From: a virus
DNA: 29,777 bases
Direction: 5' to 3' (one strand)
IMG/VR virus record: IMGVR_UViG_3300042887_001530
Coordinates: 1-29,777 of that record
Of this stretch, positions 5,540-28,678 are shown piece by piece (positions within the stretch are counted from its first letter, which is position 1; every line of letters starts with the position of its first letter). The translations under genes and the position numbers were made by a program. Below the pieces are notes generated by a model. The model saw only the letters and a program-made list of their open reading frames with translations, was not told the DNA's origin and did no database searches.

Positions 5540-5542
5540 AAT

Positions 5543-7306: not shown

Positions 7307-7926
7307 ATATTTTGAGTTCTATCTTTTGGTATTACAATAACATAACCTTCATGATTATATAATTTAGTAATATTATGTGTATCGGAAAAAGCATCATGAA
7401 TAAATTGAATACCATTGCCTCCATAATGAACTCTATCTCTCCAGTTGCCTCCTTCAAAATTTCCATCTTCATATATTCGCAAATCATCTATTATAAAATA
7501 GTCTTTGCAATTTTTTCTATTTTCTTTTATTATTTTTATTTCCTCTTCCAATGGTATTCTTATATTTTTGTCTTTAGTAAAAGTATAAGATGCATTATTA
7601 TGATCGGCATCAGGAAAATGTGCATCTAACCAGAAAAAGATATTTTTATTTTTTGGAATATTTGTTAGAATTTGTTTAAGGCCATCGGGCGAATTGGAAT
7701 TTATTAATTTTATATTATGATTTTTATAATTTTCTTTAATTGATAAACACTGTTCATACAAAACCGTAGAAATCTCTATAGAAAAATATTCATCAAACTT
7801 ATTTTCATTTGTTTTTTCTAAAACAAATTTTAACGAATTACCAACACCCGTTCCTGTTTCCACAAAATAACTTAAATTAAAATTTGTTTTAATAGAATTA
7901 ATATCAAAAATATTCATAGAACCCAT
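7303..7926 (-). CDS. SAM-dependent methyltransferase-like protein
   Basis: A 207-residue soluble protein. YFVETGTGVGNSLKFVL at about residues 20-36 looks like a Rossmann motif I, FSIEIS is a plausible motif II strand, and FFWLDAHFPDADH and FIIDDLRIYEDG resemble later strands of class I methyltransferases found in LPS and capsule loci. There is no zinc motif or membrane segment. The ATG at 7926 begins Met-Gly-Ser-Met, and the second Met is an equally possible start. It is joined by ATGA to the nucleotidyltransferase gene downstream and separated by 15 bases from the epimerase gene upstream. O-methylation of a sugar is a guess from context. Confidence 0.6.
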   Translation of the reverse strand: MGSMNIFDINSIKTNFNLSYFVETGTGVGNSLKFVLEKTNENKFDEYFSIEISTVLYEQCLSIKENYKNHNIKLINSNSPDGLKQILTNIPKNKNIFFWLDAHFPDADHNNASYTFTKDKNIRIPLEEEIKIIKENRKNCKDYFIIDDLRIYEDGNFEGGNWRDRVHYGGNGIQFIHDAFSDTHNITKLYNHEGYVIVIPKDRTQNI

Positions 7927-7941
7927 ATTATTTTCCTTGTT

Positions 7942-8934: not shown

Positions 8935-8936
8935 AT

Positions 8937-10163: not shown

Positions 10164-11118
10164 TTATTGATCTTTTAAAAGTTTCTATATTGTAATATGC
10201 AGTATCATTAAAATTATAATTATTAATATTGATATTATTTAATATATCGTCTATTGACTCTTCGATACCATATATTGATTTATATTTTAAATCTTTTTCT
10301 ATTTTATTTGTTGATGCTTTATAATTTCTAACATCTTGAATATTATTAATTATTAATTCTATATTCATTCCCAAACCAATTAAATGATTGTAAATTTTAT
10401 TTGCTAAATCACCAATAGTCAAATTAATACCAGATAAATTGTATATACCTGATACATTTAATTCTGCAAATATTGCTTTTTCGTATCCCTGAATTACATC
10501 TCGAATGTCAATAAGAGGCCTCCATAAATTTGGATTATTTACCACTATTTTTTTATGAAGAATTGCATCTTTTAACATAGTATTAACAACTAAATCATAT
10601 CTCATTTTAGGTGACCATCCACACACAGTGCCTTTTCTGAAAATTATTGGTCGAAACATATCATCTTGTAGAGTCATTATTCCACATTCTGATTGTAATT
10701 TTGATATACCATATGGATAGTTTGGTTTTATTGCGCTGTTTTCATTTAATATTTTATTTTTAGTATAACCATAAACACTACAAGAACTTGCATAAATAAA
10801 TCTTCTGATACCTGCCATTTTTGTTATATAGGCTATATAAGCAGGCGCAGCTGCATTTTCAATAAAATTTAAATCCGGCCGAAACATTGCCATTGGATCA
10901 TTTGCCAATCCCGCAAGAAAGATAACGGAATCAAATCCAATTAAATCCTTAGACGTTAATTTCCATAAATCTTGTTTTTGTTTTGAAATTTCAGGTAAAA
11001 GAAAATCTCCAAACCAAAATTTATCAATTACCGATACATCATGTCCACTCGTATGTAATTGATTGGACATACGAGTACCAATATATCCAGCACCACCTAT
11101 TATTAATATTTTGCTCAT
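10156..11118 (-). CDS. NAD-dependent epimerase/dehydratase (extended SDR)
   Basis: A 320-residue extended SDR. GGAGYIG at residues 8-14 binds the cofactor. The catalytic set is Ser111-Ser112 in SSCSVYG with Tyr136 and Lys140 (YGISK). FRKGTVCGWSPKMRYDLVVN and RPLIDIRDVI resemble the substrate-loop region of NDP-sugar epimerase-type proteins often paired with C-methyltransferases. The substrate cannot be told. The ATG overlaps the upstream glycosyltransferase stop as ATGA, and its end overlaps the C-methyltransferase start by 8 bases, so the two may act in sequence on the same sugar. The C-terminal 60 residues are very Asn/Ile-rich, reflecting the low GC content here. Confidence 0.8.
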   Translation of the reverse strand: MSKILIIGGAGYIGTRMSNQLHTSGHDVSVIDKFWFGDFLLPEISKQKQDLWKLTSKDLIGFDSVIFLAGLANDPMAMFRPDLNFIENAAAPAYIAYITKMAGIRRFIYASSCSVYGYTKNKILNENSAIKPNYPYGISKLQSECGIMTLQDDMFRPIIFRKGTVCGWSPKMRYDLVVNTMLKDAILHKKIVVNNPNLWRPLIDIRDVIQGYEKAIFAELNVSGIYNLSGINLTIGDLANKIYNHLIGLGMNIELIINNIQDVRNYKASTNKIEKDLKYKSIYGIEESIDDILNNININNYNFNDTAYYNIETFKRSIND

Positions 11119-11912
11119 AATGTATAAATTAATTTTTTAAATTTTTCAATATTTTTTTGAACATATATTGGTAGATGATCTAATGTTTCTATTGAATATA
11201 ATTTTTGTTCATCAGTTCTGCCAAAAGGATCTTCTAATTTTTCTATTCTTTCTTTAAAAAACTCTTCTGTTAAATGATTACATGTATCATGACCAAAATT
11301 AATAGTTTTTAATTTTTGATTTTTTTCATCACCTAATGAACTATAATGCCATCCACCATAACTATGATTTTGACAATTTATTCTTGACCACAATCCATCC
11401 CCTATACAACTATAATATATATTATTTTTCCCAAGAGATTCAAAAGTTGTAATATATGTTCCATGCCATTCAGTTTTATTAAAATCATGAAGAAAACGAG
11501 TATTCATATAATAATAATATAAATTCATTGTTACACAAATTGGAAATTTATGATCAATTTTTATATTATTTATAATTTCACTTTTAGGAATTTCGTCTAA
11601 TGCACCAATCATGATTATGTCGTTATTCTTTGCTGCAATTAAGCCAGTTATAATATAATTCCAACAATTTATTTCATTTTGTCTAGTATTCTCGTTAAAT
11701 AAATTTTCTGGTACTTCTAATCTAATAATTTTATGATTGAATTTTTCAAATCTATCCTTATTATTAAGATAATGACATTCTTTTGGTTTATTCTGAAATG
11801 ATCTTTTAGATTCGACTAAAACAAAATAATCAACTACATCATTTAATTCATTTAATCGTATTTCTAATAAATCTAATTCATTAAAAAAAGTAAAACAATC
11901 ATAAACTTTCAT
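11115..11912 (-). CDS. GT17-family glycosyltransferase
   Basis: A 265-residue protein starting MKVYDCFTFFNELDLLEIR, the typical opening of family GT17 (N-acetylglucosaminyltransferase III-type). FVLVESKRSFQNKPK, IIMIGALDEIP (the D-E position usual for metal binding in the family) and the Gly-Trp-His segment GGWHYS also fit. The ORF extends upstream to a TTG, but the ATG at 11912, sharing one base with the upstream TGA, restores the family N-terminus and is preferred. Eukaryotic members add bisecting GlcNAc to beta-mannose; bacterial and phage members are poorly studied, so donor and acceptor are unknown. Base composition is among the most AT-rich in the window. Confidence 0.85.
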   Translation of the reverse strand: MKVYDCFTFFNELDLLEIRLNELNDVVDYFVLVESKRSFQNKPKECHYLNNKDRFEKFNHKIIRLEVPENLFNENTRQNEINCWNYIITGLIAAKNNDIIMIGALDEIPKSEIINNIKIDHKFPICVTMNLYYYYMNTRFLHDFNKTEWHGTYITTFESLGKNNIYYSCIGDGLWSRINCQNHSYGGWHYSSLGDEKNQKLKTINFGHDTCNHLTEEFFKERIEKLEDPFGRTDEQKLYSIETLDHLPIYVQKNIEKFKKLIYTL

Positions 11913-12520
11913 CAGATATTCCTTTTCAATACAGTAAGACCATTGCAATTTACAAATATTTCATGAATTTTCCAATTACTATTTGATTCTAAAAATTCTT
12001 CCAAAGCAGGCAATAATCCAATCTTATCTTTGCTATTAGTTCCGATCCTCCCTGAATCTTCGTCGGTATATTTGTAAGATTCTGTGTCATGTAGTATTAT
12101 GTATTTTTTAACTTTATGCGAGTGTAGAGACAATTCAGTCTTAAGTTGAGTATATGAATGTAAGGTATCTATGAAAAGTAAATCAGTTTCTTCTATTTCT
12201 ATATTTGTAGTGTCTCCTAAAATAAATTGATAATATACATTATTTAAACGACAATAATTTATTACGCTATTCATTCTATCACCACATTGATGATCATTCC
12301 AATGTAATGTTCCCGAAATAAGGTTTTGCGGATCAACTATATCAATTGATATGAATTTCTTTGGTTTAGCAACAGCAAATGCAAAAGTTGATACTACCCA
12401 TCGAACTCCCATTTCTGTTATGTGGTTACATTCACTAGCATACCGTTTTAGTGTTGGCAGATGCTCATTTATATCTGATGATAAGTTACATAATTTATTG
12501 TAATATTGTTCAGTATCCAT
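11912..12520 (-). CDS. Class I methyltransferase (cephalosporin-hydroxylase/Methyltransf_24-like)
   Basis: A 202-residue soluble protein. TEMGVRW at residues 35-41 is a motif-I-like loop, FISIDI at 56-61 carries the acidic residue for the ribose of SAM, and DLLFIDTLHSY at 113-123 is the characteristic strand-4 motif with a His often used for metal or acid-base chemistry. YIILHDTES is a further conserved strand. These features place it with the cephalosporin-hydroxylase-like and Methyltransf_24 proteins that are frequent in sugar loci. It overlaps the GT17 start by one base. O-methylation of a sugar hydroxyl is the likely reaction, by family and context. Confidence 0.72.
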   Translation of the reverse strand: MDTEQYYNKLCNLSSDINEHLPTLKRYASECNHITEMGVRWVVSTFAFAVAKPKKFISIDIVDPQNLISGTLHWNDHQCGDRMNSVINYCRLNNVYYQFILGDTTNIEIEETDLLFIDTLHSYTQLKTELSLHSHKVKKYIILHDTESYKYTDEDSGRIGTNSKDKIGLLPALEEFLESNSNWKIHEIFVNCNGLTVLKRNI

Positions 12521-12521
12521 A

Positions 12522-13196
12522 TTAAATTTCTTTTATTTGTTGTAATATATCTTTATTTCCATGAAAACCAAATGTATCATTTCTATAATCACCATAATCT
12601 TTTGAAAATTTATCTGCAATTTCAACTGGTGCAAATTTTACACCATTTGAAATAAAATAATCATAGTTATCATTGCATATAAACGCATCTTCTGGTTTTT
12701 GACATTTTGGTAATATACTTTGTGATAATTGTAATAATTTTTTAGATCTCATACTAAATCCACCATTACCAACTCTATTTAGTCCATCGAGTCCTTTTTT
12801 ACTAACAATTTCTGGCAATACTCCTTTTATTTGACATGGGTATCTTCTAAAATCCCAAGTATGTCCAATATAATCGTATTTTAAAAAATCATCCAACCAC
12901 AAATGAGCATTTAATATAAAACCATCTGATTGAACTATTATACAATAATCTGTATTAATATAATTATTCAATTCATGAACTATAAATTCATTATATCCTA
13001 TCCACGACAATGGGGATATTGTATGATGTTTAATTTTAAAATTTTCATTATAATTTTTGGGTGAAATTAAAACGCATTCTGCAAAATTGATATTTTTAGA
13101 ACTTATACGCAATGCATCATATGCATTTTTTATATTTTCTTCTTTTGTTGTTCCTTCAACACACACTAATGTTACATTTGATAATTTTAAAATCAT
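12522..13196 (-). CDS. DUF5672-family putative glycosyltransferase
   Basis: A 224-residue protein with the DUF5672 pattern: NVTLVCVEG near the start, then QSDGF at residues 89-93, WLDDFLKYDYIG at 100-111 and VGNGGFSMR at 142-150. The D-G-F and N-G-G-F-S segments resemble the donor and acceptor loops of GT-A enzymes, and the family is regarded as glycosyltransferase-like. There is no membrane segment. The ATG is preceded only by a weak AAAGAAA ribosome-binding sequence. A TATAAATA match lies 38 bases upstream. One base separates its stop from the methyltransferase gene. Substrate unknown. Confidence 0.78.
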   Translation of the reverse strand: MILKLSNVTLVCVEGTTKEENIKNAYDALRISSKNINFAECVLISPKNYNENFKIKHHTISPLSWIGYNEFIVHELNNYINTDYCIIVQSDGFILNAHLWLDDFLKYDYIGHTWDFRRYPCQIKGVLPEIVSKKGLDGLNRVGNGGFSMRSKKLLQLSQSILPKCQKPEDAFICNDNYDYFISNGVKFAPVEIADKFSKDYGDYRNDTFGFHGNKDILQQIKEI

Positions 13197-13207
13197 AAAT
13201 AATTTCT

Positions 13208-13915
13208 TTATGTCTGGTTATTTAATATTAACGTATTTATACTTTTCCAATCAATACCAAATGATATAACGGGTTCGTGTACCGTGGTAGCAACACTCGG
13301 AATCGGAGAATATAATCTTATATTGTTCTGATAAAGATGTCTAAAAAACAATCTATCCTCTAATCCAAATCTTTTTGCAATTGGAATTATATGAGAAATT
13401 AAATTTCTTGATACTGCCCAAGAACAAGTTGTACTTTCGCAGGTTCTCCAATGTTTTCCTTCATGAAAGTAAATAGATTCGTTACCTAGACAGATATCGT
13501 CATTACTAGTATATCGATCTGGATGATCATATCCGGTGATTAAACCAAATCTTTCAACTCCCGTATAAATGTGGTCTAAAGCATCTAGTGTATAGAGGTA
13601 ATCATCTTCTGCAAAATAGATATTTCCTTCTGATATTTTTTCAGAATAATCAAGTTGAAATTGAAGAGAATTATAATTAGATCTAACTTTGTTATAAATT
13701 ATGGTATAATCTAATTTTTCCATTTCATCAGAAAGTATTGATTTATCTCCATCCATTAATATTATAATTTTTATTTGATCCTTATATTTACAATTTAAAT
13801 AAGAATTATGTAAAGATTTAAAACAATTAACTTTAGAAAACCAAGAAGGTCTTCCTACTCTAGTCGGGATACTTTCCAATTCTTTATCACATGCTCGGTA
13901 CAATATAGTCAACAT
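13208..13915 (-). CDS. GT-A type glycosyltransferase-like protein
   Basis: A 235-residue protein. IKIIILMDGDKS at residues 48-59 and GNIYFAEDDYLYTLDAL at about 98-114 resemble the nucleotide-sugar binding and D-x-D metal site of GT-A transferases. RTCESTTCSWAVSR matches the position of the acceptor-side region. It has no membrane segment. Three bases separate it from the methyltransferase gene upstream. The last codons (encoding SINTLI) contain a TATAAATA sequence in the gene's 3' end. Family membership is probable, but CAZy family and substrate are not determined. Confidence 0.72.
   Translation of the reverse strand: MLTILYRACDKELESIPTRVGRPSWFSKVNCFKSLHNSYLNCKYKDQIKIIILMDGDKSILSDEMEKLDYTIIYNKVRSNYNSLQFQLDYSEKISEGNIYFAEDDYLYTLDALDHIYTGVERFGLITGYDHPDRYTSNDDICLGNESIYFHEGKHWRTCESTTCSWAVSRNLISHIIPIAKRFGLEDRLFFRHLYQNNIRLYSPIPSVATTVHEPVISFGIDWKSINTLILNNQT
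13234..13241 (-). promoter_or_regulatory. Possible late promoter (TATAAATA) inside sugar block
   Basis: The minus strand reads TATAAATA from 13241 to 13234, at the 3' end of a glycosyltransferase gene and 38 bases before the next ATG at 13196. A start near 13228 would leave a 32-base leader. The position is sensible, but with about 70 percent AT several such matches are expected by chance in this block, so support is weak. Confidence 0.25.
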
Positions 13916-13918
13916 AAA

Positions 13919-14413
13919 TTAATTTTTTTCTCCCATTATCATAAATGCATTATTCAAATCAATACCGGATTTAAAAATATCAGTATATCCGCGATCTACC
14001 ATATAATCTTCAATAATTTGTGGTGTAAATATATTGACATGCTTTCGATTGTTCCAAGGACGCCAATACTCTTGACTATAATCCGGAAGATATAAAAACA
14101 ATACTCCACCTATTTTTAATTTTGAATACCAATAATCCATCGCATCTACCCATCGATCAACGTGCTCCAGACAATGTGATGAGAAAATATAATCCAAATC
14201 AGTATATGGAAAATCTAAAGCATGATAATTTCCTTCCAATACAGGATCAACTAATTTGGCGCCTGGAAAGGCCCACTCTTCCTTCATACATCCGATATCG
14301 ACACCATGTCCACTACATACATGTTTAGCAAAAGGTATAGCAAATTGCGAAGCATTTCCTTTACTTTGAAATTTTGGGTATTTTTTATTATTGAATTTTA
14401 TAGTATCAATCAT
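13919..14413 (-). CDS. SAM-dependent methyltransferase (Methyltransf_11 type)
   Basis: A 164-residue class I methyltransferase. GVDIGC at residues 37-42 is motif I, HALDFPYTDLDYIFSSHCLEHV at about 64-85 covers the acidic loop and the CLEHV strand typical of Methyltransf_11, and KIGGVLFLYLPD is motif V/VI. An upstream TTG would add five residues. The ATG at 14413, which overlaps the preceding TGA as ATGA like most junctions here, is the better start. It lies between a GT9-like protein and a GT-A-like protein and so probably methylates a sugar or sugar nucleotide. The N-terminus is short, with no targeting sequence. Confidence 0.78.
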   Translation of the reverse strand: MIDTIKFNNKKYPKFQSKGNASQFAIPFAKHVCSGHGVDIGCMKEEWAFPGAKLVDPVLEGNYHALDFPYTDLDYIFSSHCLEHVDRWVDAMDYWYSKLKIGGVLFLYLPDYSQEYWRPWNNRKHVNIFTPQIIEDYMVDRGYTDIFKSGIDLNNAFMIMGEKN

Positions 14414-15159
14414 ATGTAATATGTCCAATTTGTATTAAATAAATCATGTATTTCTGCTACCGTATTTCTTCCACTTCTAGGATAGCAATAGTTTTTTAGT
14501 GATTTTAATTTTAAAAACTCCATAAAATACATAATACAAGTATCTACTGTAATTATGTATTGAGCGTTTTCTATAACTCCACACCAATCAAATACACTAA
14601 ACTCAGGTAATAATTTCATTTCAACATGTTTTAACGATGATAAATTTAAATCCTTAAAACACGAAGAAACATTTTTAGTAATAATATTAGGTGGAGTTGC
14701 ATATATTGTATTTGTAAAATAGTACAATTCGTTTTTACTCAACCCCAAAGAAGAATATAGTTTTTCTTCTCTTTCTTTATTTCTTACTATCTTTATATCA
14801 TCTTTCCATTGTCTATAATCTAAACCACACATAGCATATTTTGCTGTCATTGTTCTTTCATATTTAACCGCTTCTACATGTTGACTCCATCCAAGAGGAA
14901 TTAAAATAAAATTTTCATCTTTTACTATTTTTTTATTATGGTAAAGTTCTAAAAATTTATCCTTAAATGGAAAATCTTTACTATTATCAAAATAGGTGAC
15001 ACCAGACACACACAAATGTTCTGGTATAGTGTTATATACAAAAGGACTTAATGGCCAAATTACTTCATATCCCTCTTCGACATATTTTTTTGCTATGTTC
15101 TGACAAAAAAATACATCTCCTATTCCACATTCTTGTTGTATTATGCAAGTTTTTTTCAT
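14410..15159 (-). CDS. GT-B-like glycosyltransferase, distant GT9 (heptosyltransferase) resemblance
   Basis: A 249-residue protein. The N-terminus has a glycine-rich GIGDVFF at residues 12-18 followed by a helix and a strand (YEVIWPL), as in GT9 ADP-heptose transferases. Near the C-terminus a segment reading SVFDWCGVIENAQYIITVDT is like the donor-binding part of GT-B enzymes, where the conserved acidic residue and Ser/Thr precede the membrane-proximal helix. It is shorter than typical GT9 enzymes (about 320-350 residues), and the resemblance is weak. If correct, it would be the natural user of the heptose donor made by the HldE-like genes of this block. No membrane segment. Confidence 0.55.
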   Translation of the reverse strand: MKKTCIIQQECGIGDVFFCQNIAKKYVEEGYEVIWPLSPFVYNTIPEHLCVSGVTYFDNSKDFPFKDKFLELYHNKKIVKDENFILIPLGWSQHVEAVKYERTMTAKYAMCGLDYRQWKDDIKIVRNKEREEKLYSSLGLSKNELYYFTNTIYATPPNIITKNVSSCFKDLNLSSLKHVEMKLLPEFSVFDWCGVIENAQYIITVDTCIMYFMEFLKLKSLKNYCYPRSGRNTVAEIHDLFNTNWTYYI

Positions 15160-15837
15160 TTATATTACCTTTATCCAAAAGCTATTACCAGTTCCATTAT
15201 TCAACTCATTATCTAAACCCAAAGAATGTAATTCAAATTTATCACATAAGTATTTTTTTAAATCATCAGAAAAACATTGACCATCATAAACTTGATTTAT
15301 TTTATTTTCAGACATTTGAATTTCTGCAAAAATACAAGAAACCTTCGATAAATCTGTACCCATAAGAACTTCAAGTTCTGCTCCTTGTACATCAATAGAT
15401 AATAAATCAATATTTTCTTTTATAATGTTTGATAATTTATTTGTTTTTACTTTTATTTTTTGTGTACTATTAAAAGAATAACCACTATTATTGTTTTTTA
15501 TTACGGGATATATCGAATCAGATCCCTGCGAAGATGTTCTATAAAAATCAATTTCACCTACTTGGTCTGTTATAGCAAAATTAAATAATTTGCATCGTGA
15601 ATTTGTTCCATATTGTTGTAGAATTACATTAAAATATTCTACTACAGGTTCAAAAATGTAAATCATTGAATTTTTATATGAATCCAAATATTTTTGAGCC
15701 TCCCAACAAGTAAATCCGCCAACTATTACAATAGTCTTTATTTCTTCTTTTGTTTTGTTGATATATTTGTGAAAATTTTCCTCAACATCTCGGGAAATAA
15801 CATCATATGCGTTTTTTTCTGTATATATTTTTGTCAT
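15160..15837 (-). CDS. FkbM-family methyltransferase
   Basis: A 225-residue protein of the FkbM type. IVIVGGFTCWEA at about residues 35-46 is motif I, IFEPV follows as motif II, NFAITDQVGEIDFY is the conserved FAI-D-G region, and IDLLSIDVQGAELEVLMG at about 143-160 is the family's D-V-E/Q-G-A-E hallmark. FkbM proteins O-methylate sugars and polyketides and are common in surface-glycan loci. The start is a clear ATG. Its end is directly adjacent to the ATG of the following gene, and one base separates it from the upstream bifunctional glycosyltransferase. Substrate unknown. Confidence 0.88.
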   Translation of the reverse strand: MTKIYTEKNAYDVISRDVEENFHKYINKTKEEIKTIVIVGGFTCWEAQKYLDSYKNSMIYIFEPVVEYFNVILQQYGTNSRCKLFNFAITDQVGEIDFYRTSSQGSDSIYPVIKNNNSGYSFNSTQKIKVKTNKLSNIIKENIDLLSIDVQGAELEVLMGTDLSKVSCIFAEIQMSENKINQVYDGQCFSDDLKKYLCDKFELHSLGLDNELNNGTGNSFWIKVI

Positions 15838-15838
15838 T

Positions 15839-17404
15839 TTAAACCTGTTGAGTTAATGTTTCCTTTTGTGACCAGAGATAATGATACATAATCTCTTCAA
15901 AATTATATTCACTTCTAATCAATTTAGATTCCAGCAACTTATCACAATAATCCGAATCTTCACCGAAATTTTTCTCTGGATAACCGATTTGTTTTGCAAT
16001 ATGCGTTTTAACCGGATTTAAATGATTAAGTGGTCTATATTGTCTGCCATTATTTTTAAAATGACCATTATTTTTATTTGCATGATTAAACAACATTGCT
16101 GCATTATTATCAACATAATACATTCCCCAGAATCCAATACCATCATACATTCCACTATTTAATTTTCTTACTATTTTTGGAATATAAGTTAAAGACACTA
16201 CATCATCGTCGTCAATAAAAGAAACATATTCACCTTTTGCTTTATTTAAACATTCGTTTCTTTTTTGACCTACTGTTTTTGTTCTATTGTCTTTATTTAC
16301 TATTATTTCTATTCTATGCTTATAACTGACAGGAATAGTTGAATTTAGAATTTCTATAAGACGATTCAATTTATCTTCTCTTCCATCTACAGTTAATATG
16401 CAAATAGACCAAAGAATGTCTTCCTTTTCCATGTGGAATTTATGTTCCGTCTTTACGATATTTTCTATTCTACTAAAGAATGATTTTCCAAACTCTTGCG
16501 CCAATTTGTAATTCTTTTCAATGTATGGTTTCATTGATTCATAAGTAGTTTCATCAATTTTATTGATTTTTTCTATAAAATCATCAAAATTTTCAACAAC
16601 AATCATTCCACGAATATCAAAAAACTCATCGATATCGGGGGCGCCCCAATAGATAGGAACAGTTTTTGTTAATAAGCAATCAATTATTTTTTCTGTAAAA
16701 TAAGAAGTTTCTTTTGTATTTTCTACTGCGATAGAAAATTGATGATCAAAAAGATTTATCTTATCATCGTCTTTTATAAAACCATCATGTAGTGTTGGTG
16801 GATCGGAAAACGGGATAAGTTCCTGTGTGTGTGGATCCAAAAATTTCCATGTAGTTGGATGTCTATTGCTGGAATAAAATTTATTTGGAATTTTTACTTT
16901 GTCTTTATTATTCCAAATTTTTTTCCGTAATTCGTATCCTACTTTTTGTTGTAAGCATGTTGTCAAAAAAGTTACACCAAATTTTTTTTCTTTGATTTTA
17001 TCCAAAATAGATGCATCAAAAGAACCCAAAGAATCTAAATGTGAATTTGATTTTTTATTTAACCATGTTCCGCCATATGGAAAAAATATAGAATTATCTA
17101 CATTTTCTATAATGTCGGGATGTGATGCTAAAATTAAATCATATTGATGAGCATTATCAATAATAACACCATTTAATTCTCTGGATTTGGAAGATGTAGG
17201 TTCATTGGAACAAATAAAAACTTTATATGCGTCTTTATTTTGAAAATCGATTGTATCTTGTCGTTTATCTTCTTTTCTTTCTCGAATACGTGGCGGAGTT
17301 CCGGATACATGAGTTGGCCCAAATCGAGTAATATGAATCTCACAAGGAAAATCTAAATTAATTTCGTCACAAAAATAATCACCATTTTGTACAATTGCTT
17401 TCAT
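15839..17404 (-). CDS. Bifunctional glycosyltransferase: GT10 + GT2 fusion
   Basis: A 521-residue two-domain protein. The N-terminal part (about 1-310) is a GT10, fucosyltransferase-type domain, with its signature at residues 223-256: FSIAVEN, then SYFTEKI, then TVPIYWGAPD. The C-terminal part (about 331-510) is a GT2-type GT-A domain, with WSICILTVDGRED at 332-344, VGQKRNECLN at 378-387, the DDDD metal site at 398-401 and GEDSDYC at 481-487. GT10 enzymes classically use GDP-L-fucose. There is no membrane anchor, unlike eukaryotic fucosyltransferases. The protein could add two sugars in succession. The GT10 domain resembles the separate GT10 gene at 18073-18900, suggesting duplication. Confidence 0.88.
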   Translation of the reverse strand: MKAIVQNGDYFCDEINLDFPCEIHITRFGPTHVSGTPPRIRERKEDKRQDTIDFQNKDAYKVFICSNEPTSSKSRELNGVIIDNAHQYDLILASHPDIIENVDNSIFFPYGGTWLNKKSNSHLDSLGSFDASILDKIKEKKFGVTFLTTCLQQKVGYELRKKIWNNKDKVKIPNKFYSSNRHPTTWKFLDPHTQELIPFSDPPTLHDGFIKDDDKINLFDHQFSIAVENTKETSYFTEKIIDCLLTKTVPIYWGAPDIDEFFDIRGMIVVENFDDFIEKINKIDETTYESMKPYIEKNYKLAQEFGKSFFSRIENIVKTEHKFHMEKEDILWSICILTVDGREDKLNRLIEILNSTIPVSYKHRIEIIVNKDNRTKTVGQKRNECLNKAKGEYVSFIDDDDVVSLTYIPKIVRKLNSGMYDGIGFWGMYYVDNNAAMLFNHANKNNGHFKNNGRQYRPLNHLNPVKTHIAKQIGYPEKNFGEDSDYCDKLLESKLIRSEYNFEEIMYHYLWSQKETLTQQV

Positions 17405-17407
17405 AAT

Positions 17408-18076
17408 TTATATCCTATTTAAATTTAATCTAATTTCACTCTCACTCATACCAACATTAGCAAATTCTTTAAGATTTTCTTCTTTGGACTTATGATCTGC
17501 TATACCCATAGTTATGTATGGTTCCATTCCCTCTGGACATTTACCAGGCCAAACACAATAATTCATGGGTAAACAACCAATCTTCAATTGATTTGCAACA
17601 AAAGGTAAGACCTTAAATAATAATATCTCATGATCAAAAAGTTTTTGATTACTGACAACTGCTTCTTCACATTTTTTAATCCATAATTTCAAAAAATCAA
17701 TTACCTTTTGATTATAATTGCAGAATATGGGAGATGCTTTTGGATTTAATACTTGTATCTGGGAGGGATCTGTTACAAAATAAGCAAAACCTAAATCTGC
17801 TTCATGTTCTAATATTTTATCAAAACCAGTAAGATCTCTATGAATTTGACTATCGATATCAATCCAGACTATTGGTTTTTTCTTTTCTTCCAACATACTT
17901 AGAATGTATTTGGGTTTACGAAGACAATTTAATCTATAATCATTTTCGGTTCTTACTTTTCTAAAATCATGTGGAAGATTTAATCTAAAGCATTCTTCTT
18001 TTATTCTAAATGCATGATCGCTGTAATATGTGTAATCACCAACATCACAATAAAAGGAAATTAATTCTGTTTTCAT
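17408..18076 (-). CDS. GT-A glycosyltransferase-like protein with DxD
   Basis: A 222-residue soluble protein with PIVWIDIDSQI, placing a D-I-D metal motif at residues 72-75 region, preceded by ILSMLEEKKKP, the order seen in nucleotide-diphospho-sugar transferases such as the DUF273/PF03407-type families. FDHEILLFKVLP at about 145 and CVWPG near 175 resemble acceptor-side elements of these families. It overlaps the upstream GT10 gene as ATGA and lies 3 bases before the GT10-GT2 fusion gene, so the three probably build one structure. Exact family and substrate are unassigned. Confidence 0.72.
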   Translation of the reverse strand: MKTELISFYCDVGDYTYYSDHAFRIKEECFRLNLPHDFRKVRTENDYRLNCLRKPKYILSMLEEKKKPIVWIDIDSQIHRDLTGFDKILEHEADLGFAYFVTDPSQIQVLNPKASPIFCNYNQKVIDFLKLWIKKCEEAVVSNQKLFDHEILLFKVLPFVANQLKIGCLPMNYCVWPGKCPEGMEPYITMGIADHKSKEENLKEFANVGMSESEIRLNLNRI

Positions 18077-18900
18077 ATTAGTTTAAAAAGAATATCATCG
18101 GCCAATTCCATATTCTTTACCCTTTCTAGATTATCAATTATTGCCGGAAGTTTACTCTTATAGAGTTCAGATGTCAAGGAAGAAAAATCAAAATCTTTAG
18201 TAAGTTCAATTATTCCTTCCTTATTGAAATAATTACCAATATCAGGAGCACCCCAATAAATAGGAATAGTTCCTGTAGCAAAACAATCCGTTATTTTTTC
18301 AGTAAAATATGTTTCATAACTATCATTTTCTATAGTCACCGAAAACATATAATCATTCATTGCTTCAGATTTATCAGGCCAAACGCCCGCACCAAACCGT
18401 TTGGAACCATTTGCACCGCCGTAGACATCAATTTTGTCTGAATGCTTCGATGCAATGGCATGTCTAAGTTTGTGTCCAAATGTTATTATCTTAGGAGAAG
18501 CAATCATAGATGTCATTTTGCTCTTTGCGTGAATTTTATGTTCCTTTACCCAAGGAGCATTACTTCCTGCAAATGCAAATTTTATGTTTGGTGAATACTT
18601 GCACCATCTACGGTCTGATACAAAAATTGTATCATATGAGTTTATTAACCTCTCAATATTCTTCTCCCAGATATCTTCGGGAAACATCCATGCATGAAAA
18701 ATAGCACGGGATTCGCATACCCATGCTATCTTCTTCTCATTTGGTTTTTTATTATAGGCAACTCCAGACGCAATTGCTTTGTCTATGAAGACTTTAATAT
18801 CACAATCGTCTGTAGTCCATTCAAATGTTTTTGGTTTTAGATTTGAACAGGAAGAATATTCAATCGGAAACGGAGCACCAATAGCTTGTATTTTTTTCAT
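18073..18900 (-). CDS. GT10 (fucosyltransferase-type) glycosyltransferase
   Basis: A 275-residue stand-alone GT10 protein. The family signature lies at residues 186-221: FSVTIEND, then TYFTEKITDCF, then GTIPIYWGAPD. It is short and has no transmembrane anchor, as in bacterial members such as Helicobacter FucT, but lacks their heptad repeats. It is the first gene of the sugar block, 19 bases after regA, with a clear AAGGAT ribosome binding site. GT10 enzymes transfer L-fucose from GDP-L-fucose. With no GDP-fucose synthesis genes seen here but a GDP-mannose 3,5-epimerase-like gene in the block, GDP-L-galactose is a possible donor (inference). Confidence 0.87.
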   Translation of the reverse strand: MKKIQAIGAPFPIEYSSCSNLKPKTFEWTTDDCDIKVFIDKAIASGVAYNKKPNEKKIAWVCESRAIFHAWMFPEDIWEKNIERLINSYDTIFVSDRRWCKYSPNIKFAFAGSNAPWVKEHKIHAKSKMTSMIASPKIITFGHKLRHAIASKHSDKIDVYGGANGSKRFGAGVWPDKSEAMNDYMFSVTIENDSYETYFTEKITDCFATGTIPIYWGAPDIGNYFNKEGIIELTKDFDFSSLTSELYKSKLPAIIDNLERVKNMELADDILFKLI

Positions 18901-22444: not shown

Positions 22445-22765
22445 TTATAATTCTACCCAATGTAGACCATTTGTATCACGGATTAATGTATAAGTTATGC
22501 CTGTGTTGGGATTATACCATCGATCTCCGATAGTTTCAGTAATAGGTTCATCAGTTTGATTAAAAAATCTATTAGGATTAATATCACCTATTTGTTCCCA
22601 TCCGCTATCTTTTGATAGAGGATTTAATCCTATAATAGTCTTTGTTGCAGCATAATAAGTGCCATCAAAATCGACAGTATCACCAATAGTATACTTGATG
22701 ATTTTGCCATTAGGATCGTATTTTTTATAAACTCCTAAGAATTTTAAATTATCTGTTTTGTTCAT
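22445..22765 (-). CDS. Small carbohydrate-binding/fibre-like protein
   Basis: A 106-residue protein in two parts. Residues about 9-60 have FLGVYK, YTIGDTVDFDGTYYAAT and GWEQIGD, a pattern like chitin-binding type 3/CBM5-12 domains. Residues about 75-106 have TIGDRWYNPNTGITYTLI and HWVEL, a motif frequent at the ends of marine phage fibre and structural proteins. There is no signal peptide. This points to a virion-associated or glycan-binding protein, unusual among replication genes. The ATG overlaps the upstream stop as ATGA. A TATAAATA late-type sequence lies 83 bases before it inside the upstream gene, which could allow separate late expression. Confidence 0.65.
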   Translation of the reverse strand: MNKTDNLKFLGVYKKYDPNGKIIKYTIGDTVDFDGTYYAATKTIIGLNPLSKDSGWEQIGDINPNRFFNQTDEPITETIGDRWYNPNTGITYTLIRDTNGLHWVEL

Positions 22766-23877
22766 TTTAGCGTTCTGAGCAAAAGAGTATGTGTATTAAT
22801 TCTACCAGTAGGACTAGAATCTTTGGTCTTTTGTGTCTTCCAGTAATTATTTATACTACGAATCCCCTCAGTTTTTGCCTTAGTCATAAATTCAATTGGT
22901 TTTTTCATCTTCTTCTCGACAGATTCAGAAGAAAATCCAATAAGAGTTGACCCCTTGACACTAATTCCCGGCCCAGTTTCATCCGACTTAAAAATGCAAG
23001 CCTTGCCGGTTTTTACATTGAAAGTAATAAGAGTAGAACAACCAACAATAGATTCAGGCAATATAGATTCAATTCCACTTGAAGTATCTTTGGTTAGATA
23101 CTTAAGTTTCTTGATTACCTGTTCAGGCTTCTTCTTTCTCTTCTTTCTTGGTTTTCTATTGCTCTTTGCTATTGTGATTCTGACTGTCAAATGATCACAT
23201 ATTGACTTATAGAAATCATGCATCTTTTGTACTTGCTTCTTGCTAAGAAAGGAATATGCTTCTTTCAATTGAGCGTCTTTGCCTTCTACAACCAAGGCAA
23301 ATTCACTCAACCCCCGCTTAAAGCATTCAAGTAAGAATTCGCAATGCATTGCACTTGGTGCGATTTCTGTCAACCACGATTCAATATCAAATGTCTTATA
23401 ATTTGGCATTTTGCCGCGAATATAAGATTCGTATTCATCGATCTTTTGCTCTAAATATGCACCAAGTTCATATGATTGTTGCCGTACTCGTTCCCGAACA
23501 GGCACTACTGGTACATTTGTATCCTGAATGCTTTTGCCATTTTTAATAAGAGTAGCAATTCCTTGATCAATATTTGTCTGTACTTTTACAGGCAAAATAC
23601 AATGAGATAAGGCAGTTTCGCATCTACCACCAATGCCTCTAAAAGTAAAATCATCGGTTGGAACTTTCGAAACATATTCCAATCCTTCGATTTTAAATTT
23701 CTTCATGTATTCTATTACACTATTTTTATAATCTCTATCGGTAAACTTGGTATTGTACCAATTTAATGCCAAAGCAATAGACCAATATACACGATCTTCG
23801 TCTTTAAAATCTTCAGGTTTCCAATGCTTCCAGTTTGGTTGCTTACCGTAAAAGATTTCTTCTGTTTGCGATTTCAT
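22762..23877 (-). CDS. Unknown protein with basic linker, next to methyltransferase-like gene
   Basis: A 371-residue soluble protein that I do not recognise. The first 90 residues are helical and Trp-rich (WKHWKPEDF). Residues about 120-240 are helical with several Cys and Glu. Residues 241-251 form a strongly basic stretch (RKPRKKRKKKP). The C-terminal third has beta-like segments, including STLITFNVKTGKACIFKS and GSTLIGFSSES. The basic linker suggests nucleic-acid contact. The ATG overlaps the methyltransferase-like gene as ATGA, and it is followed by the small fibre-like gene in the same way. Co-transcription suggests a shared job with the methyltransferase-like and PLP proteins. No catalytic motif can be named. 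Confidence 0.7.
   Translation of the reverse strand: MKSQTEEIFYGKQPNWKHWKPEDFKDEDRVYWSIALALNWYNTKFTDRDYKNSVIEYMKKFKIEGLEYVSKVPTDDFTFRGIGGRCETALSHCILPVKVQTNIDQGIATLIKNGKSIQDTNVPVVPVRERVRQQSYELGAYLEQKIDEYESYIRGKMPNYKTFDIESWLTEIAPSAMHCEFLLECFKRGLSEFALVVEGKDAQLKEAYSFLSKKQVQKMHDFYKSICDHLTVRITIAKSNRKPRKKRKKKPEQVIKKLKYLTKDTSSGIESILPESIVGCSTLITFNVKTGKACIFKSDETGPGISVKGSTLIGFSSESVEKKMKKPIEFMTKAKTEGIRSINNYWKTQKTKDSSPTGRINTHTLLLRTLK
22848..22855 (-). promoter_or_regulatory. Possible late promoter (TATAAATA) for the small fibre-like gene
   Basis: The minus strand reads TATAAATA from 22855 to 22848, inside the 3' part of the 371-residue protein gene and 83 bases before the ATG at 22765. If used, it would give a leader of about 77 bases and late expression of the only virion-like protein in this region. 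The match may also be chance. Confidence 0.3.
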
Positions 23878-25451
23878 GGCTTATAGTATACAAAAACTGG
23901 TTCGTATTTCAAATAATTTCCATTCACTTTACAAAAGTTCTTACATTTTGGTTTGCCATCTTCGTCTAACCGATTCTGCCCAGGCATACCTTCCATTGCC
24001 ATTTTTAATGTTTGAACATATTTCATTCCAAGACTTTCTAATATGTCTCTTGAATCTTTTTCTAATGTTAGATATTTGCCAGAAATTTGAATATCGGCAA
24101 TATTCCATAAAAGGTATCTATTATTTCTCAAATACTCAACACAGGTTTCTAGTGTTGGTCGAAGGAATCCATCTCTCCAAGAATCATAACTGGAAAATTT
24201 CTTATAAGATTGATTTTCGTTTTCCGAATATGCTTCTCTATTGAAATACGGAGGAGAGGTAAAGATCAAATCAACCGATCCCTTATACTTCTGAAATTCA
24301 ACATCATCCTTTATTGTTTCCGAACCATGTTTAAAAATTTCGTAAGTATTGGTGGTTGAGAAGAACGAGTTTCCTCTATAAGTTCTAGTATTATAGAAAT
24401 TAGCAAGATCAGCGTACATGCCGCCATTCCCAACATGAGAAGGGAAATTATCCAAGTTAGGATCAGTCCCGATATAGTGAATATTTCTATTGTCATTGAC
24501 AGACATTGCACCAAGAATGCGGCCGCCCCAGCCAGAAGAAGGGTCATAAACCACAATTTGGTTTTGTGTGTAAAAAGATTCCGTAAATTTTTCATAAAGA
24601 TACCTTGCCGTTAAAGGAGGAAAATTAACTGCGGGTTGAATATAACCTATTCTGAAACTAGGAAAACATTTGGGAAATACTTTGTATCCCTTTTCATATA
24701 CTCTAATTCTAAAAATCTTGTCATCGGGAATATTCTCTGTATCAAATGTTGAATAGTGCCGATACGATAATTTGGGTTTCCAATTCAAAAATTGCTGTTT
24801 AGTTAGTGAAAGTATTTTTGATTGTTCTATTTGATAATAACCCGTATTCACACCATCTTCATCGTCATGTTGATCTAAAATAAAATCATGATCTTTGAAA
24901 ATGGAGGGATTGCTGAAATATGCTTCCATCCACTCTTCTCCACTACCAACAGAAACAATAGCGTATTTGCTATCGTTTTTTATGGCAGAACAAGCAAAAG
25001 TATAAAGAGAGTCACGGCGAATATGCCGTCGAGCACCCTTTATCATTTTTGTTAAATACTTGTCATTTGCAAATAAATCGTAAATAGAATAACCAGTATC
25101 GTTTTCGCTGTAGTTTATTCTAGTCTTGTACATATTAGAAAACCATTGATCTGCTTCCGCACCTAAACGAGATTTATTGATAATTACATCTTTCTCGCCA
25201 GACAATTCATCTACAAATTCAAAAGTATGTACAGGATATCCGGTGAGTTTATTAAACTCTTCGATAATATCATCTTCATTTTTACCAGTTCTAGGAGGAC
25301 AATTAGTTGCATCCCATGCCTCAAGAACAACTTTACGCATATCCTTTACCCACTCTTCGAATTCAGAGTCATTCATAGAAACAATGTCTTCAAAGAAAAC
25401 ATTAATTTTATGATTTAAAAGATAATCGTTTCTTTCGTAAAAATGCTTCAT
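23874..25451 (-). CDS. Amino-DNA-methyltransferase-like protein (DPSSGWGG/SPPY motifs)
   Basis: A 525-residue protein. The C-terminal half has YDPSSGWGGR near residue 302 (SAM motif I) and FTSPPYF near 398-403 (catalytic motif IV of N6-adenine/N4-cytosine methyltransferases), in the order I then IV. YEPVFVYYKP ends the protein. The N-terminal 290 residues are unassigned and could bind DNA or carry a second function. The open frame extends to a TTG at 25466, but the ATG at 25451 overlaps the preceding TGA as ATGA and is preferred. Catalysis of DNA amino-methylation is suggested by motifs; a different SAM-derived transfer is possible, given the adjacent PLP enzyme. Cleavage-type restriction motifs are not seen. 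Confidence 0.78.
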   Translation of the reverse strand: MKHFYERNDYLLNHKINVFFEDIVSMNDSEFEEWVKDMRKVVLEAWDATNCPPRTGKNEDDIIEEFNKLTGYPVHTFEFVDELSGEKDVIINKSRLGAEADQWFSNMYKTRINYSENDTGYSIYDLFANDKYLTKMIKGARRHIRRDSLYTFACSAIKNDSKYAIVSVGSGEEWMEAYFSNPSIFKDHDFILDQHDDEDGVNTGYYQIEQSKILSLTKQQFLNWKPKLSYRHYSTFDTENIPDDKIFRIRVYEKGYKVFPKCFPSFRIGYIQPAVNFPPLTARYLYEKFTESFYTQNQIVVYDPSSGWGGRILGAMSVNDNRNIHYIGTDPNLDNFPSHVGNGGMYADLANFYNTRTYRGNSFFSTTNTYEIFKHGSETIKDDVEFQKYKGSVDLIFTSPPYFNREAYSENENQSYKKFSSYDSWRDGFLRPTLETCVEYLRNNRYLLWNIADIQISGKYLTLEKDSRDILESLGMKYVQTLKMAMEGMPGQNRLDEDGKPKCKNFCKVNGNYLKYEPVFVYYKP

Positions 25452-26179
25452 GCGCCAACATTCCAAAATAAAGCATCAGGGGATGCGTGTTCTTTTATGA
25501 ACTTCCATGCTTTTGCGTCATAAGTCGGAACAGAGGGAAAGGGAGGAGCATCAGCAGGATCGACTGCATCGAAGAAAGGAATGTCACACTTGTACATTTT
25601 TGCTCTACCCAATTCCCTCTGTCCCATTTTATGACCAACAGAAACACAATTAAATTCTGCTTCGGGCCATGCTAACTGCAACCCTCTAGTAAGAGTTCCA
25701 CTAGATCCAACAGTCCATACTTCTTTTGGTTGAATCGGTAGAGTCTTTGCCAATTCGCAAATTTCAGATATTACTTCAGGACAATCAAATCCAATAGGAA
25801 ATAGTTTTCTATTGTCGGTGTCTGAAGCAACATAATCTCTTGCTCTCTTTTGTGTTACACTAAGCATACCGTTGTCTACTCCGTGTATTGTAGCACCATA
25901 ATTCATTGCTTTCAACTGGTAAGGATGAAGATTCTCCGGTTTTCTTTTTGCCATGAAAAGAATACATTTCTTATTCAAATGCTGACATACTCTTGCCAAT
26001 GCAATTTGAGCATATCCTGTTGCTGGCGATGATCCATATACCATCTCAGATTGGGGCGAATTTTTAATTAGATTCTGAACAAATCTAGTTTTAGAACCGC
26101 CTTCAATCAAATCATCACGAACAACATAAAACTGATCGTGCTTTTCTATAACGGGTTTTGGATTTATCTCGTCGCTCAT
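25448..26179 (-). CDS. PLP-dependent enzyme, fold-type II (ACC deaminase/D-cysteine desulfhydrase-like)
   Basis: A 243-residue protein with RDDLIEGGSKTR, placing a probable Schiff-base Lys at position 30, as in the GGNK motif of ACC deaminase and D-cysteine desulfhydrase. GSSGTLTRG at 158-166 fits the phosphate-binding loop of fold type II. These enzymes are usually 325-350 residues, so this is a compact member, probably lacking part of the C-terminal region. They act on small amino acids by elimination or deamination. It is ATGA-linked to gp46 upstream and to the methyltransferase-like gene downstream. Substrate unknown; a role in supplying a nucleotide-modifying group is only a hypothesis. 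Confidence 0.78.
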   Translation of the reverse strand: MSDEINPKPVIEKHDQFYVVRDDLIEGGSKTRFVQNLIKNSPQSEMVYGSSPATGYAQIALARVCQHLNKKCILFMAKRKPENLHPYQLKAMNYGATIHGVDNGMLSVTQKRARDYVASDTDNRKLFPIGFDCPEVISEICELAKTLPIQPKEVWTVGSSGTLTRGLQLAWPEAEFNCVSVGHKMGQRELGRAKMYKCDIPFFDAVDPADAPPFPSVPTYDAKAWKFIKEHASPDALFWNVGA

Positions 26180-27891
26180 GTGAGTTTGCTGAAATTATTT
26201 TTCTTTTCAAAACCAATAACATGTTGAAACTTATCAACTAATTGATCTGATTTATGACTAATAACAAAAATATTAGATTTATCACTTACTGCATTCAATA
26301 ACTTCATTAGTTCATCCATACCCAAGGCATCAAGAGAAGAATCAAAAACTTCATCAAGAATCAAAATATTACAATTTACGCTATTCTTGGTTCTGGCAAT
26401 TTCTCTCCATGCCAACAATAGTGCCAGATCAATTCTCATCTTTTCACCTTCGCTGAAATTCATATAACTGAACTCATCTCTATGCCTACTCTTGATCTTT
26501 TCATTAAAATCTTCATCAAGGGTAAACTGTGCAAAAAAGTCCATAGATGACAAAAATTTATTAATGTACTTATTCATAAATGGCAAATAGTACTTAATAA
26601 TTTTTGCTTTAACCCCTGAATCTTTTAATAGCACATGTGCATGTTCGTGATATAAAAGTTCATCTTTATTCTCTTCCTTTTCCTTTTCAAAAACAGACAA
26701 AGAAGATTGATACTGATTTAACTTTTGTTTCTGTGAATCAAGATGACTCGTAGAAGTCGTCATATCTGACAACTCCTTATTGAGTGTCGAAAGATACTTT
26801 TCAGCGTTCTTAATAGATGTCTTTTTCTGCACAATTTCCAAATTTCTATCTTGTATTTCTTTAGTTATTTTAGAAATTTCAGATAATCTATTAGATACAT
26901 TATTGATATTACCATCCAAACTAACTATTGCTTTTTCGTATTCAGTTTTCTTTTCATTTCTTTTAGATACTTCTGTTTTCTTGGTTTCTGAATCTATAGT
27001 CTGATTGCACGAAGGACAAGAAACATTTTCTTCAAAGAATGAAATATCTTTTTCTATATTCTTAAGATTTATATGAATTTTTGTTTTTAGTTTTTCAAGT
27101 TCATTTAATGATTTATTAGATGAAGTCTGATCTGCAATTTGCTTGACTAGTTCAGTAACTCCGTTTTCTAAATCGACAACTTCACCTCGTAGTGTCTGTA
27201 TGTCATTTGAAATATCGTTTACTTTGTCCTGCACCAGTTTAATATCTTCATTACTTTTCGCTTCCATACTAGTAATGTGTTGTTGTTGCAGAACAATTTT
27301 TTGTTTTTCCAAATCTATCTTTGTTGATATATCTCGAAGTGTTTCTTTTATCTGTAGAATCTTACCCTTAAGTAAAATATTCATTGTACTAAAAACATTA
27401 ATATCAAGAATATTTTCAATTACAGCACGACGATCCGATGCGGACAATTGCATAAAAGGAACAAAGGATGAACTACCCAATATCACAACTTGAGTAAAGG
27501 TCTTATAATTCATCTTTATAATTTGATCTTCAAGAACTTCTTGATAATCAAGACTTTTTGCATCCTGATTAACTAGAACACCATTCTTATGAATTTCAAA
27601 TAACTTAGGATTCAACCCACGACGAACTAAGTATTCATCAGAACCTTTAGTAAATTCAATTTCAACTAAACAATTCTTATCGTTTACAGAATTTACTAAT
27701 TGAGGAATATTGATCTTTCTGAAAGGTTTTCCAAATAGAGCAAATGTAATGGAATCCAGAAAAGCAAATGATTTTCCGCTACCATTATTACCACAAATAA
27801 GAGTGGTTGGATTTTTGTCAAGAATCAGTTCGGTAAAATTATTACCAAACGATCCGAAATTTTTAAACCGTACCTTCTTGAACTTTATCAT
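26176..27891 (-). CDS. 46: Recombination endonuclease subunit gp46 (SbcC/Rad50-like)
   Basis: A 571-residue SMC-like ATPase (T4 gp46 has 560). Walker A GNNGSGKS is at residues 34-41, long coiled coils occupy about 180-430 and are broken by a zinc hook CPSC at 292-295, the ABC signature FSEGEK is at 479-484 and Walker B ILDEVFD is at 511-517. The D-loop and H-loop (VISHKSDQ) follow. With gp47 it resects DNA ends for recombination-dependent replication and host DNA breakdown. It overlaps the SET-domain gene upstream by 29 bases and the PLP gene downstream by 4. Confidence 0.96.
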   Translation of the reverse strand: MIKFKKVRFKNFGSFGNNFTELILDKNPTTLICGNNGSGKSFAFLDSITFALFGKPFRKINIPQLVNSVNDKNCLVEIEFTKGSDEYLVRRGLNPKLFEIHKNGVLVNQDAKSLDYQEVLEDQIIKMNYKTFTQVVILGSSSFVPFMQLSASDRRAVIENILDINVFSTMNILLKGKILQIKETLRDISTKIDLEKQKIVLQQQHITSMEAKSNEDIKLVQDKVNDISNDIQTLRGEVVDLENGVTELVKQIADQTSSNKSLNELEKLKTKIHINLKNIEKDISFFEENVSCPSCNQTIDSETKKTEVSKRNEKKTEYEKAIVSLDGNINNVSNRLSEISKITKEIQDRNLEIVQKKTSIKNAEKYLSTLNKELSDMTTSTSHLDSQKQKLNQYQSSLSVFEKEKEENKDELLYHEHAHVLLKDSGVKAKIIKYYLPFMNKYINKFLSSMDFFAQFTLDEDFNEKIKSRHRDEFSYMNFSEGEKMRIDLALLLAWREIARTKNSVNCNILILDEVFDSSLDALGMDELMKLLNAVSDKSNIFVISHKSDQLVDKFQHVIGFEKKNNFSKLT

Positions 27892-28678
27892 TTAGAATTT
27901 TCTCCGGCACTACCATAGAACGGAAAAGCAAATCTTCAGCAGTTTTTTCTTCAGTTGGTTTGGATTCCGGTAAATCTTCCTTTACCAATTCTATTGGTTC
28001 ATTCTTCTTTCCACACGAAGAACAACCACCACTAACTGAATCTCTTAAATTCTTACCACTTGGTGGCCACCCTTCAGGAGTGCCACGTTCAAATGTCATC
28101 TTAGATTCCATTTTAAGGCGCATAGAATATCCTGCACCATAATACCATGTAATTTCTTCACCTTGTTTGATATCAGTCAATGCATGAAGTGTATAATATT
28201 TCAATGCAGTATCTTGTGTCCAGTATCCATTTGGTTGTTCAGAATGATTATATACCATTCCATTTCCAAGAACTAATGCCATAGTATTACCATACTTTTC
28301 GCATATAGAACAACCACACCCCCAAGCAAAAGCATATCGATTCAATACCCAATCCTTGTTTCCTTTGAACGTACTGTCCAACAAAACAACCGGACATTCC
28401 TCAATAATGTCCCCGGATTTGATGTCCTCGGATGCAAAAACACCTAATCCACTAATTTTTGATTTTCCTACATAAACTTTTGGTTGGATGAACTTAGTTT
28501 TTATTGCAAATTTATTTTCTTTTGCAATATATGCGGAAACATAGTAACTATGCGATTTTCTTGCCGGAAATCCATATTCATCGTACTCAGGAACCATATC
28601 ATCGTTTCCTGGCAAATAAATGGACGGATCAAAAACTTTTGGTCTATCTTCGTTTGATTGCATTTCATTTGTGTTCAT
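27863..28678 (-). CDS. SET-domain protein (putative protein-lysine methyltransferase)
   Basis: A 271-residue protein. SET motifs include GLGVFASEDIKSGDIIEECP near residues 78-97, NHSEQPNG near 145 (the NH..PN SAM-pocket motif) and GEEITWYYG near 170. The C-terminal region has a CSSCGKK cysteine pair, which could be part of a zinc site in place of a classical post-SET domain, followed by an acidic Glu/Pro-rich tail. SET proteins methylate lysines using SAM. Its genomic place between gp47 and gp46 is unusual relative to T4, where small genes 46.1 and 46.2 lie there. Translation is coupled by ATGA to gp47 and by a 29-base overlap to gp46. Target protein unknown. Confidence 0.85.
   Translation of the reverse strand: MNTNEMQSNEDRPKVFDPSIYLPGNDDMVPEYDEYGFPARKSHSYYVSAYIAKENKFAIKTKFIQPKVYVGKSKISGLGVFASEDIKSGDIIEECPVVLLDSTFKGNKDWVLNRYAFAWGCGCSICEKYGNTMALVLGNGMVYNHSEQPNGYWTQDTALKYYTLHALTDIKQGEEITWYYGAGYSMRLKMESKMTFERGTPEGWPPSGKNLRDSVSGGCSSCGKKNEPIELVKEDLPESKPTEEKTAEDLLFRSMVVPEKILNDKVQEGTV

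Follow-up and report, generated by a model that had tools for sequence, protein, structure and literature searches.

Why do the genes for a PLP enzyme and an SPPY-type methyltransferase (MTase) lie side by side in a phage replication operon, and what would the two proteins do to DNA? The window (the whole stretch of DNA that was analysed, a 29.8-kb IMG/VR virus fragment of a T4-like phage) carries a minus-strand replication operon that runs, in order, gp47-SET-gp46-PLP-MTase-ORF3-U4-RNase H-gp45-gp44. The first-pass annotation had read the PLP, MTase and ORF3 genes as one coupled chain that could carry out a new base modification. Our preferred answer, to which we give a probability of roughly 55%, is that the PLP enzyme and the SPPY MTase form a two-enzyme DNA base hypermodification module; the module itself is well supported, and its chemistry is what we infer. 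Checking of the ORFs placed the PLP enzyme, the MTase-like gene and the 371-aa gene on the minus strand, exactly where they had been annotated, and the following features (window coordinates) are used below.

25448-26179, minus strand: PLP enzyme, compact fold-type II, 243 aa, of the M6/SN1-type DNA-hypermodification family (phrog_7093); from profiles, alignment, AlphaFold model and structure match.
26090-26092, minus strand: codon of Lys30, the expected PLP Schiff-base lysine (GGSKTR), aligning with the SK of SN1_023; from the 54-homologue alignment.
25685-25708, minus strand: glycine/serine-rich phosphate loop GSSGTLTR, residues 158-165; from alignments.
25505-25546, minus strand: PLP family signature PPFPSVPTYDAKAW, residues 212-225, with the SN1 PLP enzyme counterpart APFPCNPFYDLKAW; from alignments.
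23874-25466, minus strand: SAM-dependent amino-DNA-MTase-like protein, 530 aa from TTG, likely start ATG 25451 (525 aa); from ORF, profile and model.
24519-24545, minus strand: MTase motif I DPSSGWGGR, predicted to bind SAM; from alignment.
24243-24260, minus strand: MTase motif IV TSPPYF, the amino-MTase catalytic motif; from sequence and alignment.
22762-23877, minus strand: ORF3, 371 aa, phrog_11903, with a basic linker, a neighbour judged to lie outside the module; from profile and neighbourhoods of relatives.

The coupling of the three genes is real, in that 4-bp ATGA-type overlaps occur at PLP/MTase (counted from the MTase ATG at 25451) and at MTase/ORF3, but the same overlaps occur at gp46/PLP and ORF3/U4, and the coupling is therefore a mark of the longer replication operon and not special to these three genes. 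ORF3, described earlier as an orphan with a basic linker, has the length and the linker (NRKPRKKRKKKP) but matches phrog_11903 (E 1e-42) and hence is no true orphan. It is missing or shortened in many T4-like PLP-MTase phages and also occurs near RNase H in phages with no PLP or MTase gene annotated beside it, on which grounds we judged it to lie outside the PLP-MTase module and rejected it as a third component; a three-gene system is not supported. Elsewhere in the window, a SET-domain protein of 271 aa (27863-28678), variable in length and absent in some relatives, lies between gp47 and gp46. Positions 3324-18900 hold a long block of sugar-nucleotide epimerase, kinase, cytidylyltransferase-like, glycosyltransferase-like and methyltransferase-like genes (heptose/LPS-like and unusually large for a T4-like phage, as read from translations only), and positions 306-2876 encode a tail-fibre-like protein with collagen-like GxxGxQGIQGIQG repeats.

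The PLP protein (243 aa) matches PF00291 (E 1e-5) and, over residues 14-243, positions 15-279 of the 279-position phrog_7093 profile (E 5e-43). Its AlphaFold model (pLDDT 94.7) has the fold-type II fold and the N-terminal lysine of ACC deaminase and D-cysteine desulfhydrase, and its best PDB folds are the ACC-deaminase homologue 1j0a (TMq 0.80) and D-cysteine desulfhydrase 4d8w (0.71); these profiles, the model and the 1j0a match bear out the annotation as a compact fold-type II PLP enzyme. The ACC-deaminase-type substrate-binding loop and active-site tyrosine region are shortened here, and their usual motifs are not alignable by sequence. Among the 54 aligned homologues sampled, Lys30 never varies (54 of 54), and conservation is also strong across the PLP signature motifs. 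A full-length homologue is SN1_023, which is the PLP enzyme of an M6-like thymidine-hypermodification gene set (BLASTP 28% identity, E 6e-15); our family profile scores 55.5 bits against the SN1/M6 PLP enzyme versus at most 23.6 bits against any solved PLP enzyme, and hhalign gives 98.4% (E 7e-15) over 220 columns. The SN1 cassette comprises a hydroxymethylase, Nmad5, aGPT-Pplase1, a kinase, a radical SAM enzyme, the PLP enzyme (SN1_023) and aGPT-Pplase2 (PMC9476957). An identity of 28% to SN1_023 may leave room for a different reaction of the window enzyme.

Amino-acid-based DNA hypermodification is known on 5-hydroxymethyluracil. Lee et al. (NAR 2022) reportedly describe PLP-dependent decarboxylases that work on amino acids joined to that base, and we take the M6 homologue of the window enzyme to be such a decarboxylase, trimming an amino acid already on DNA and not free SAM. 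By analogy with this activity, the window enzyme may decarboxylate a DNA-bound amino acid.

In the MTase, for which homologues begin at MKHFYERN (ATG 25451, giving 525 aa), DPSSGWGGR is followed by TSPPYF, and PF01555 matches with E 4e-6. Motifs I and IV are conserved. The structure model (pLDDT 88.5) shows a class I amino-MTase fold in the C-terminal half, and SAM motif I and the [DNS]PP[YFW] motif IV of the Rossmann MTase fold are both present. The amino-DNA-MTase motifs and the large unassigned N-terminal half of the first-pass annotation thus both stand: the N-terminal half (about 250 aa) has no family match. Structure prediction, which had been proposed for it, gave a fold of good confidence; we found no sequence or PDB relative that would suggest a function, the top matches in a viral structure library were nearly all MTases, and we dropped the attempt to derive a function from this half. 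Nothing in the sequence tells transfer of a 3-amino-3-carboxypropyl (acp) group from transfer of methyl. The same 530-aa MTase is also found without PLP in T4-like relatives; two loci (L082:6695-9888 and L085) carry two tandem diverged copies of it after the PLP gene.

How firmly are the two genes tied to each other? With each query, IMG/VR scans returned, as a minimum, more than 550 stretches that encode relatives of the PLP enzyme, a scan of bacterial genomes found 36 PLP loci (many in alphaproteobacterial contigs), and a plasmid collection gave no match to the PLP enzyme. An amino-MTase lies within 3 kb of the PLP gene in 150 of 168 non-redundant PLP loci, and in 134 of those 150 it is within 200 bp of it or fused to it; the PLP loci without a nearby MTase are nearly all contig ends, broken genes or members of a separate X328-cassette clade. 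The link between PLP and MTase is far beyond chance. Linkage of the original three genes in other phages is accordingly seen for the PLP-MTase pair, which recurs, but not for ORF3, which is often missing, shortened or located elsewhere.

The pair takes several forms, and the MTase partners of the PLP enzyme come from different subfamilies. The PLP gene precedes the MTase gene in T4-like phages, and in alphaproteobacterial prophages the order is MTase then PLP, with ParB. Erythrobacter phages carry the PLP domain within the MTase itself, after motif I and ahead of the CPPY motif: a single 812-aa protein (Erythrobacter P0001) has DPFAGG at 341 and SCPPY at 661, with the PLP domain spanning about 407-622 between them, whereas in the Microcystis MTase, which has a separate PLP gene downstream, only 69 residues part motif I from the CPPY-type motif, indicating insertion of PLP into the MTase fold. 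A further locus (L287) is a tail fusion of PLP and MTase, 571 aa in length. On the tree of alphaproteobacterial MTases the state of the adjoining PLP changed 15 times (at least 6 of these forced), PLP mostly coming back downstream of the MTase and overlapping it, and about half of the MTases on the tree lack PLP. Taken with the PLP-less MTases of T4-like phages, this half shows that PLP is an add-on that turns the MTase into something else, and not an obligate subunit.

Some loci have additional neighbours. The same Asp/Asn-hydroxylase-like 2OG enzyme (30% identity, E 6e-61) accompanies PLP and MTase in two backgrounds that are unrelated to each other: in T4-like phages it adjoins PLP, and elsewhere its gene separates those of the MTase and PLP; examples of this enzyme (about 385 aa, Asp_Arg_Hydrox) lie at L039:4799-5947, L341:3807-4967 and L276:1790-2935. 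Ligases resembling glutamine synthetase (GS) directly adjoin the MTase or PLP gene in 18 loci, and one OTCase-like gene and two CysH-like genes occur near PLP-MTase loci. GlnII-like glutamine synthetase genes adjoin the T4-like MTase, often in PLP-less phages (L229:6578-8035, L213:6591-7682, L245:3929-4990), one type of them preceded by a weak thioredoxin-domain match. As proof of hypermodification the GS-like and PAPS-reductase-like neighbours are weakened, being GlnII-like (as in L245) and CysH-like (as in L074), and because these genes resemble metabolic enzymes we give them little weight.

A divergent clade of PLP enzymes, which form one branch of the PLP tree, sits in a sister cassette of T4-like freshwater phages, X368-X328-PLP-X364, some copies of which have a C5-MTase (examples are L365-L444, L275, L277, L278 and L280; for instance, L277:3503-9051). 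PLP was present in 81 of the 86 sister-cassette loci inspected, and a gene like thymidylate synthase (TS) lies close upstream of X368 in the contigs checked. X328 and X368 are mutually related and match no known family; an 'ED..C.F.(K/R)' motif had raised the suspicion that they are relatives of HMUDK or ADDT, and profile comparisons were negative. X364 adjoins a protein with the 5-hmdU-kinase helical domain in L363:108-2394 (44 bits), and as phrog_13881 it is fused to a weak match to that domain (17 bits, below the cut-off) in Aeromonas phage 44RR2.8t ORF233c (L362:4001-6388), which suggests a role for X364 in base hypermodification. The cassette is a candidate new pyrimidine-hypermodification pathway, and the sister clade speaks for a role of the PLP family as a whole in DNA base hypermodification. 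The target would be a hydroxymethylase-made pyrimidine in the sister clade and a different base in the phages that pair PLP with an amino-MTase.

The plainest alternative to a hypermodification module is ordinary N4mC or N6mA methylation, with the PLP protein as an auxiliary metabolic enzyme (ACC-deaminase- or D-cysteine-desulfhydrase-like) for amino-acid, sulphur or SAM supply. The best structural matches are indeed ACC deaminase and D-cysteine desulfhydrase, GlnII-like and CysH-like genes occur near PLP-MTase in some relatives, and the MTase is also found without PLP; yet insertion into, fusion with and repeated re-pairing with DNA MTases have no rationale for a metabolic enzyme, and the homologue of the PLP protein belongs to a hypermodification cassette, so that we regard this alternative as unlikely. 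The occurrence of the MTase without PLP, in T4-like relatives and in about half of the alphaproteobacterial MTases, nonetheless counts against our own reading as well, because the MTase may simply methylate while PLP adds something else. PLP occupies, within the MTase or next to it, a place at which target-recognition parts sit in other MTases, and this would fit a PLP fold that has become a non-catalytic specificity or regulatory domain, but a scaffold would not need an invariant Lys30 or strongly conserved PLP motifs, and we consider this very improbable.

The homology of the PLP enzyme to that of M6/SN1, the TS-like genes beside the sister PLP clade and the small extent of the window (a 29.8-kb fragment) also leave some room for an M6-like thymidine hypermodification, in which the hydroxymethylase, kinase and amino-acid transferase would be encoded beyond the fragment, the MTase being an unrelated anti-restriction enzyme. 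The fusion of PLP into MTases counts against this reading. A TS-type hydroxymethylase gene is present in 0 of 11 MTase-type PLP contigs (fragments of 53-170 kb) versus 10 of 10 sister-cassette contigs. The 5-hmdU kinase helical domain (HMUDK_hel, PF18723) was found in none of the 25 IMG/VR contigs searched, its sole match being in a bacterial bin, and ADDT (PF18724) had no credible match in those 25 contigs, the one sub-threshold hit (14 bits, L364) falling in a glycosyltransferase-like ORF. All these contigs are fragments, and no single absence weighs much; as a set, however, the absences leave the M6 thymidine route unlikely, and we rejected a complete M6 pathway for the MTase-type phages, the M6-like explanation as a whole being rather less likely than auxiliary metabolism. 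Since the contigs searched gave no TS-like gene, no 5-hmdU kinase and no credible ADDT, thymine is an unlikely target in the lineage of the window. A variant closer to our preferred reading gives the same product in another order: the PLP enzyme would decarboxylate free SAM first, and the MTase-fold enzyme, in the manner of spermidine synthase, would then use the decarboxylated SAM as donor of the aminopropyl group. SAM is an alpha-amino acid, the partner is a SAM enzyme, and the PLP domain of the fused forms is inserted beside the SAM motif; against this order, the M6 homologue is reported to act on a DNA-bound amino acid and not on free SAM, and we hold it to be improbable.

We therefore return to the two-enzyme module. 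Joint action of the two enzymes on DNA is, in our judgement, likely; that the outcome is an amino-acid-derived hypermodification of an amino base we slightly favour. Their recurrent and sometimes fused pairing, coupled with the homology to the PLP enzyme of M6-like cassettes, makes a new base hypermodification the most likely role of the pair, as judged from sequence comparison, and suggests attachment of an amino-acid-derived group to the base in a manner not described before. The earlier proposal of a new base modification thus survives for PLP and MTase, and loses its ORF3 component. If PLP acts on a DNA-bound amino acid, the MTase-fold protein would be what attaches it, because it is the only transferase always present, and the site would be an exocyclic amine, cytosine N4 or adenine N6. 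The simplest donor would be SAM, whose acp group would be moved in place of methyl; the PLP enzyme would then decarboxylate the acp adduct to an N-(3-aminopropyl) base. Since SAM has an amino-acid side arm, this sequence of transfer and decarboxylation is the most economical proposal. An acp/aminopropyl route of any kind, including one in which PLP acts on SAM first, is nevertheless tentative, and equally speculative is the specific form of a two-component system that dispenses with a modified nucleotide pool, places acp on cytosine N4 or adenine N6 and yields a positively charged aminopropyl base. In some lineages the optional 2OG enzyme, GS-like ligase or carbamoyltransferase could decorate the same group, and the modified base would shield phage DNA from restriction. 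If true, the system would be the first in which a PLP enzyme processes a modification on an exocyclic amine of DNA, and a PLP family tied to and inserted in amino-MTases across hundreds of viral contigs would point to a distinct and widespread chemistry for modifying other bases.

We did not find the PLP-MTase pair described in the literature searched, and our analysis corrects the labels 'threonine dehydratase' and plain 'DNA methylase' that the two genes have carried. Cultured carriers of both exist in Erythrobacter phages R6L and ZS04 (fused) and Microcystis phage Mae-JY30 (ParB, MTase and PLP genes). Compared with known systems, the window PLP enzyme shares with the M6/SN1 (Yuavirus) enzyme (phrog_7093, 'threonine dehydratase') full-length homology, the PFPxxPxYDxKAW ... 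FWNxG signature and the lysine; the M6-type enzyme, however, has a hydroxymethylase, aGPT-Pplase1/2, a kinase and a radical SAM enzyme as neighbours, whereas the window-type enzyme is paired with an amino-MTase, and the M6-type neighbours were not found. With ACC deaminase and D-cysteine desulfhydrase it has the fold and the lysine position in common, but these are about 325 aa in length (versus 243 aa) and about 15% identical, and only the window-type PLP is MTase-linked. The CcrM-like ParB-MTase proteins of phages are the same MTase partner as in alphaproteobacterial prophages and Erythrobacter and Microcystis phages; R6L ORF1 was annotated only as a CcrM-like methylase, with no mention of an embedded or adjacent PLP domain (PMC5463345). 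In the CmoX/CmoY carboxymethylcytosine system, CmoX is a C5-MTase that uses Cx-SAM made by CmoA (PMC12783734), in contrast to the amino-MTase and PLP enzyme of the window-type module, and because CmoA (TIGR00740) exceeded the cut-off in 0 of 30 contigs we rejected Cx-SAM chemistry for the latter. The two systems would nevertheless follow a common logic, in which an MTase-fold enzyme adds a larger handle to the base and a second enzyme elaborates it.
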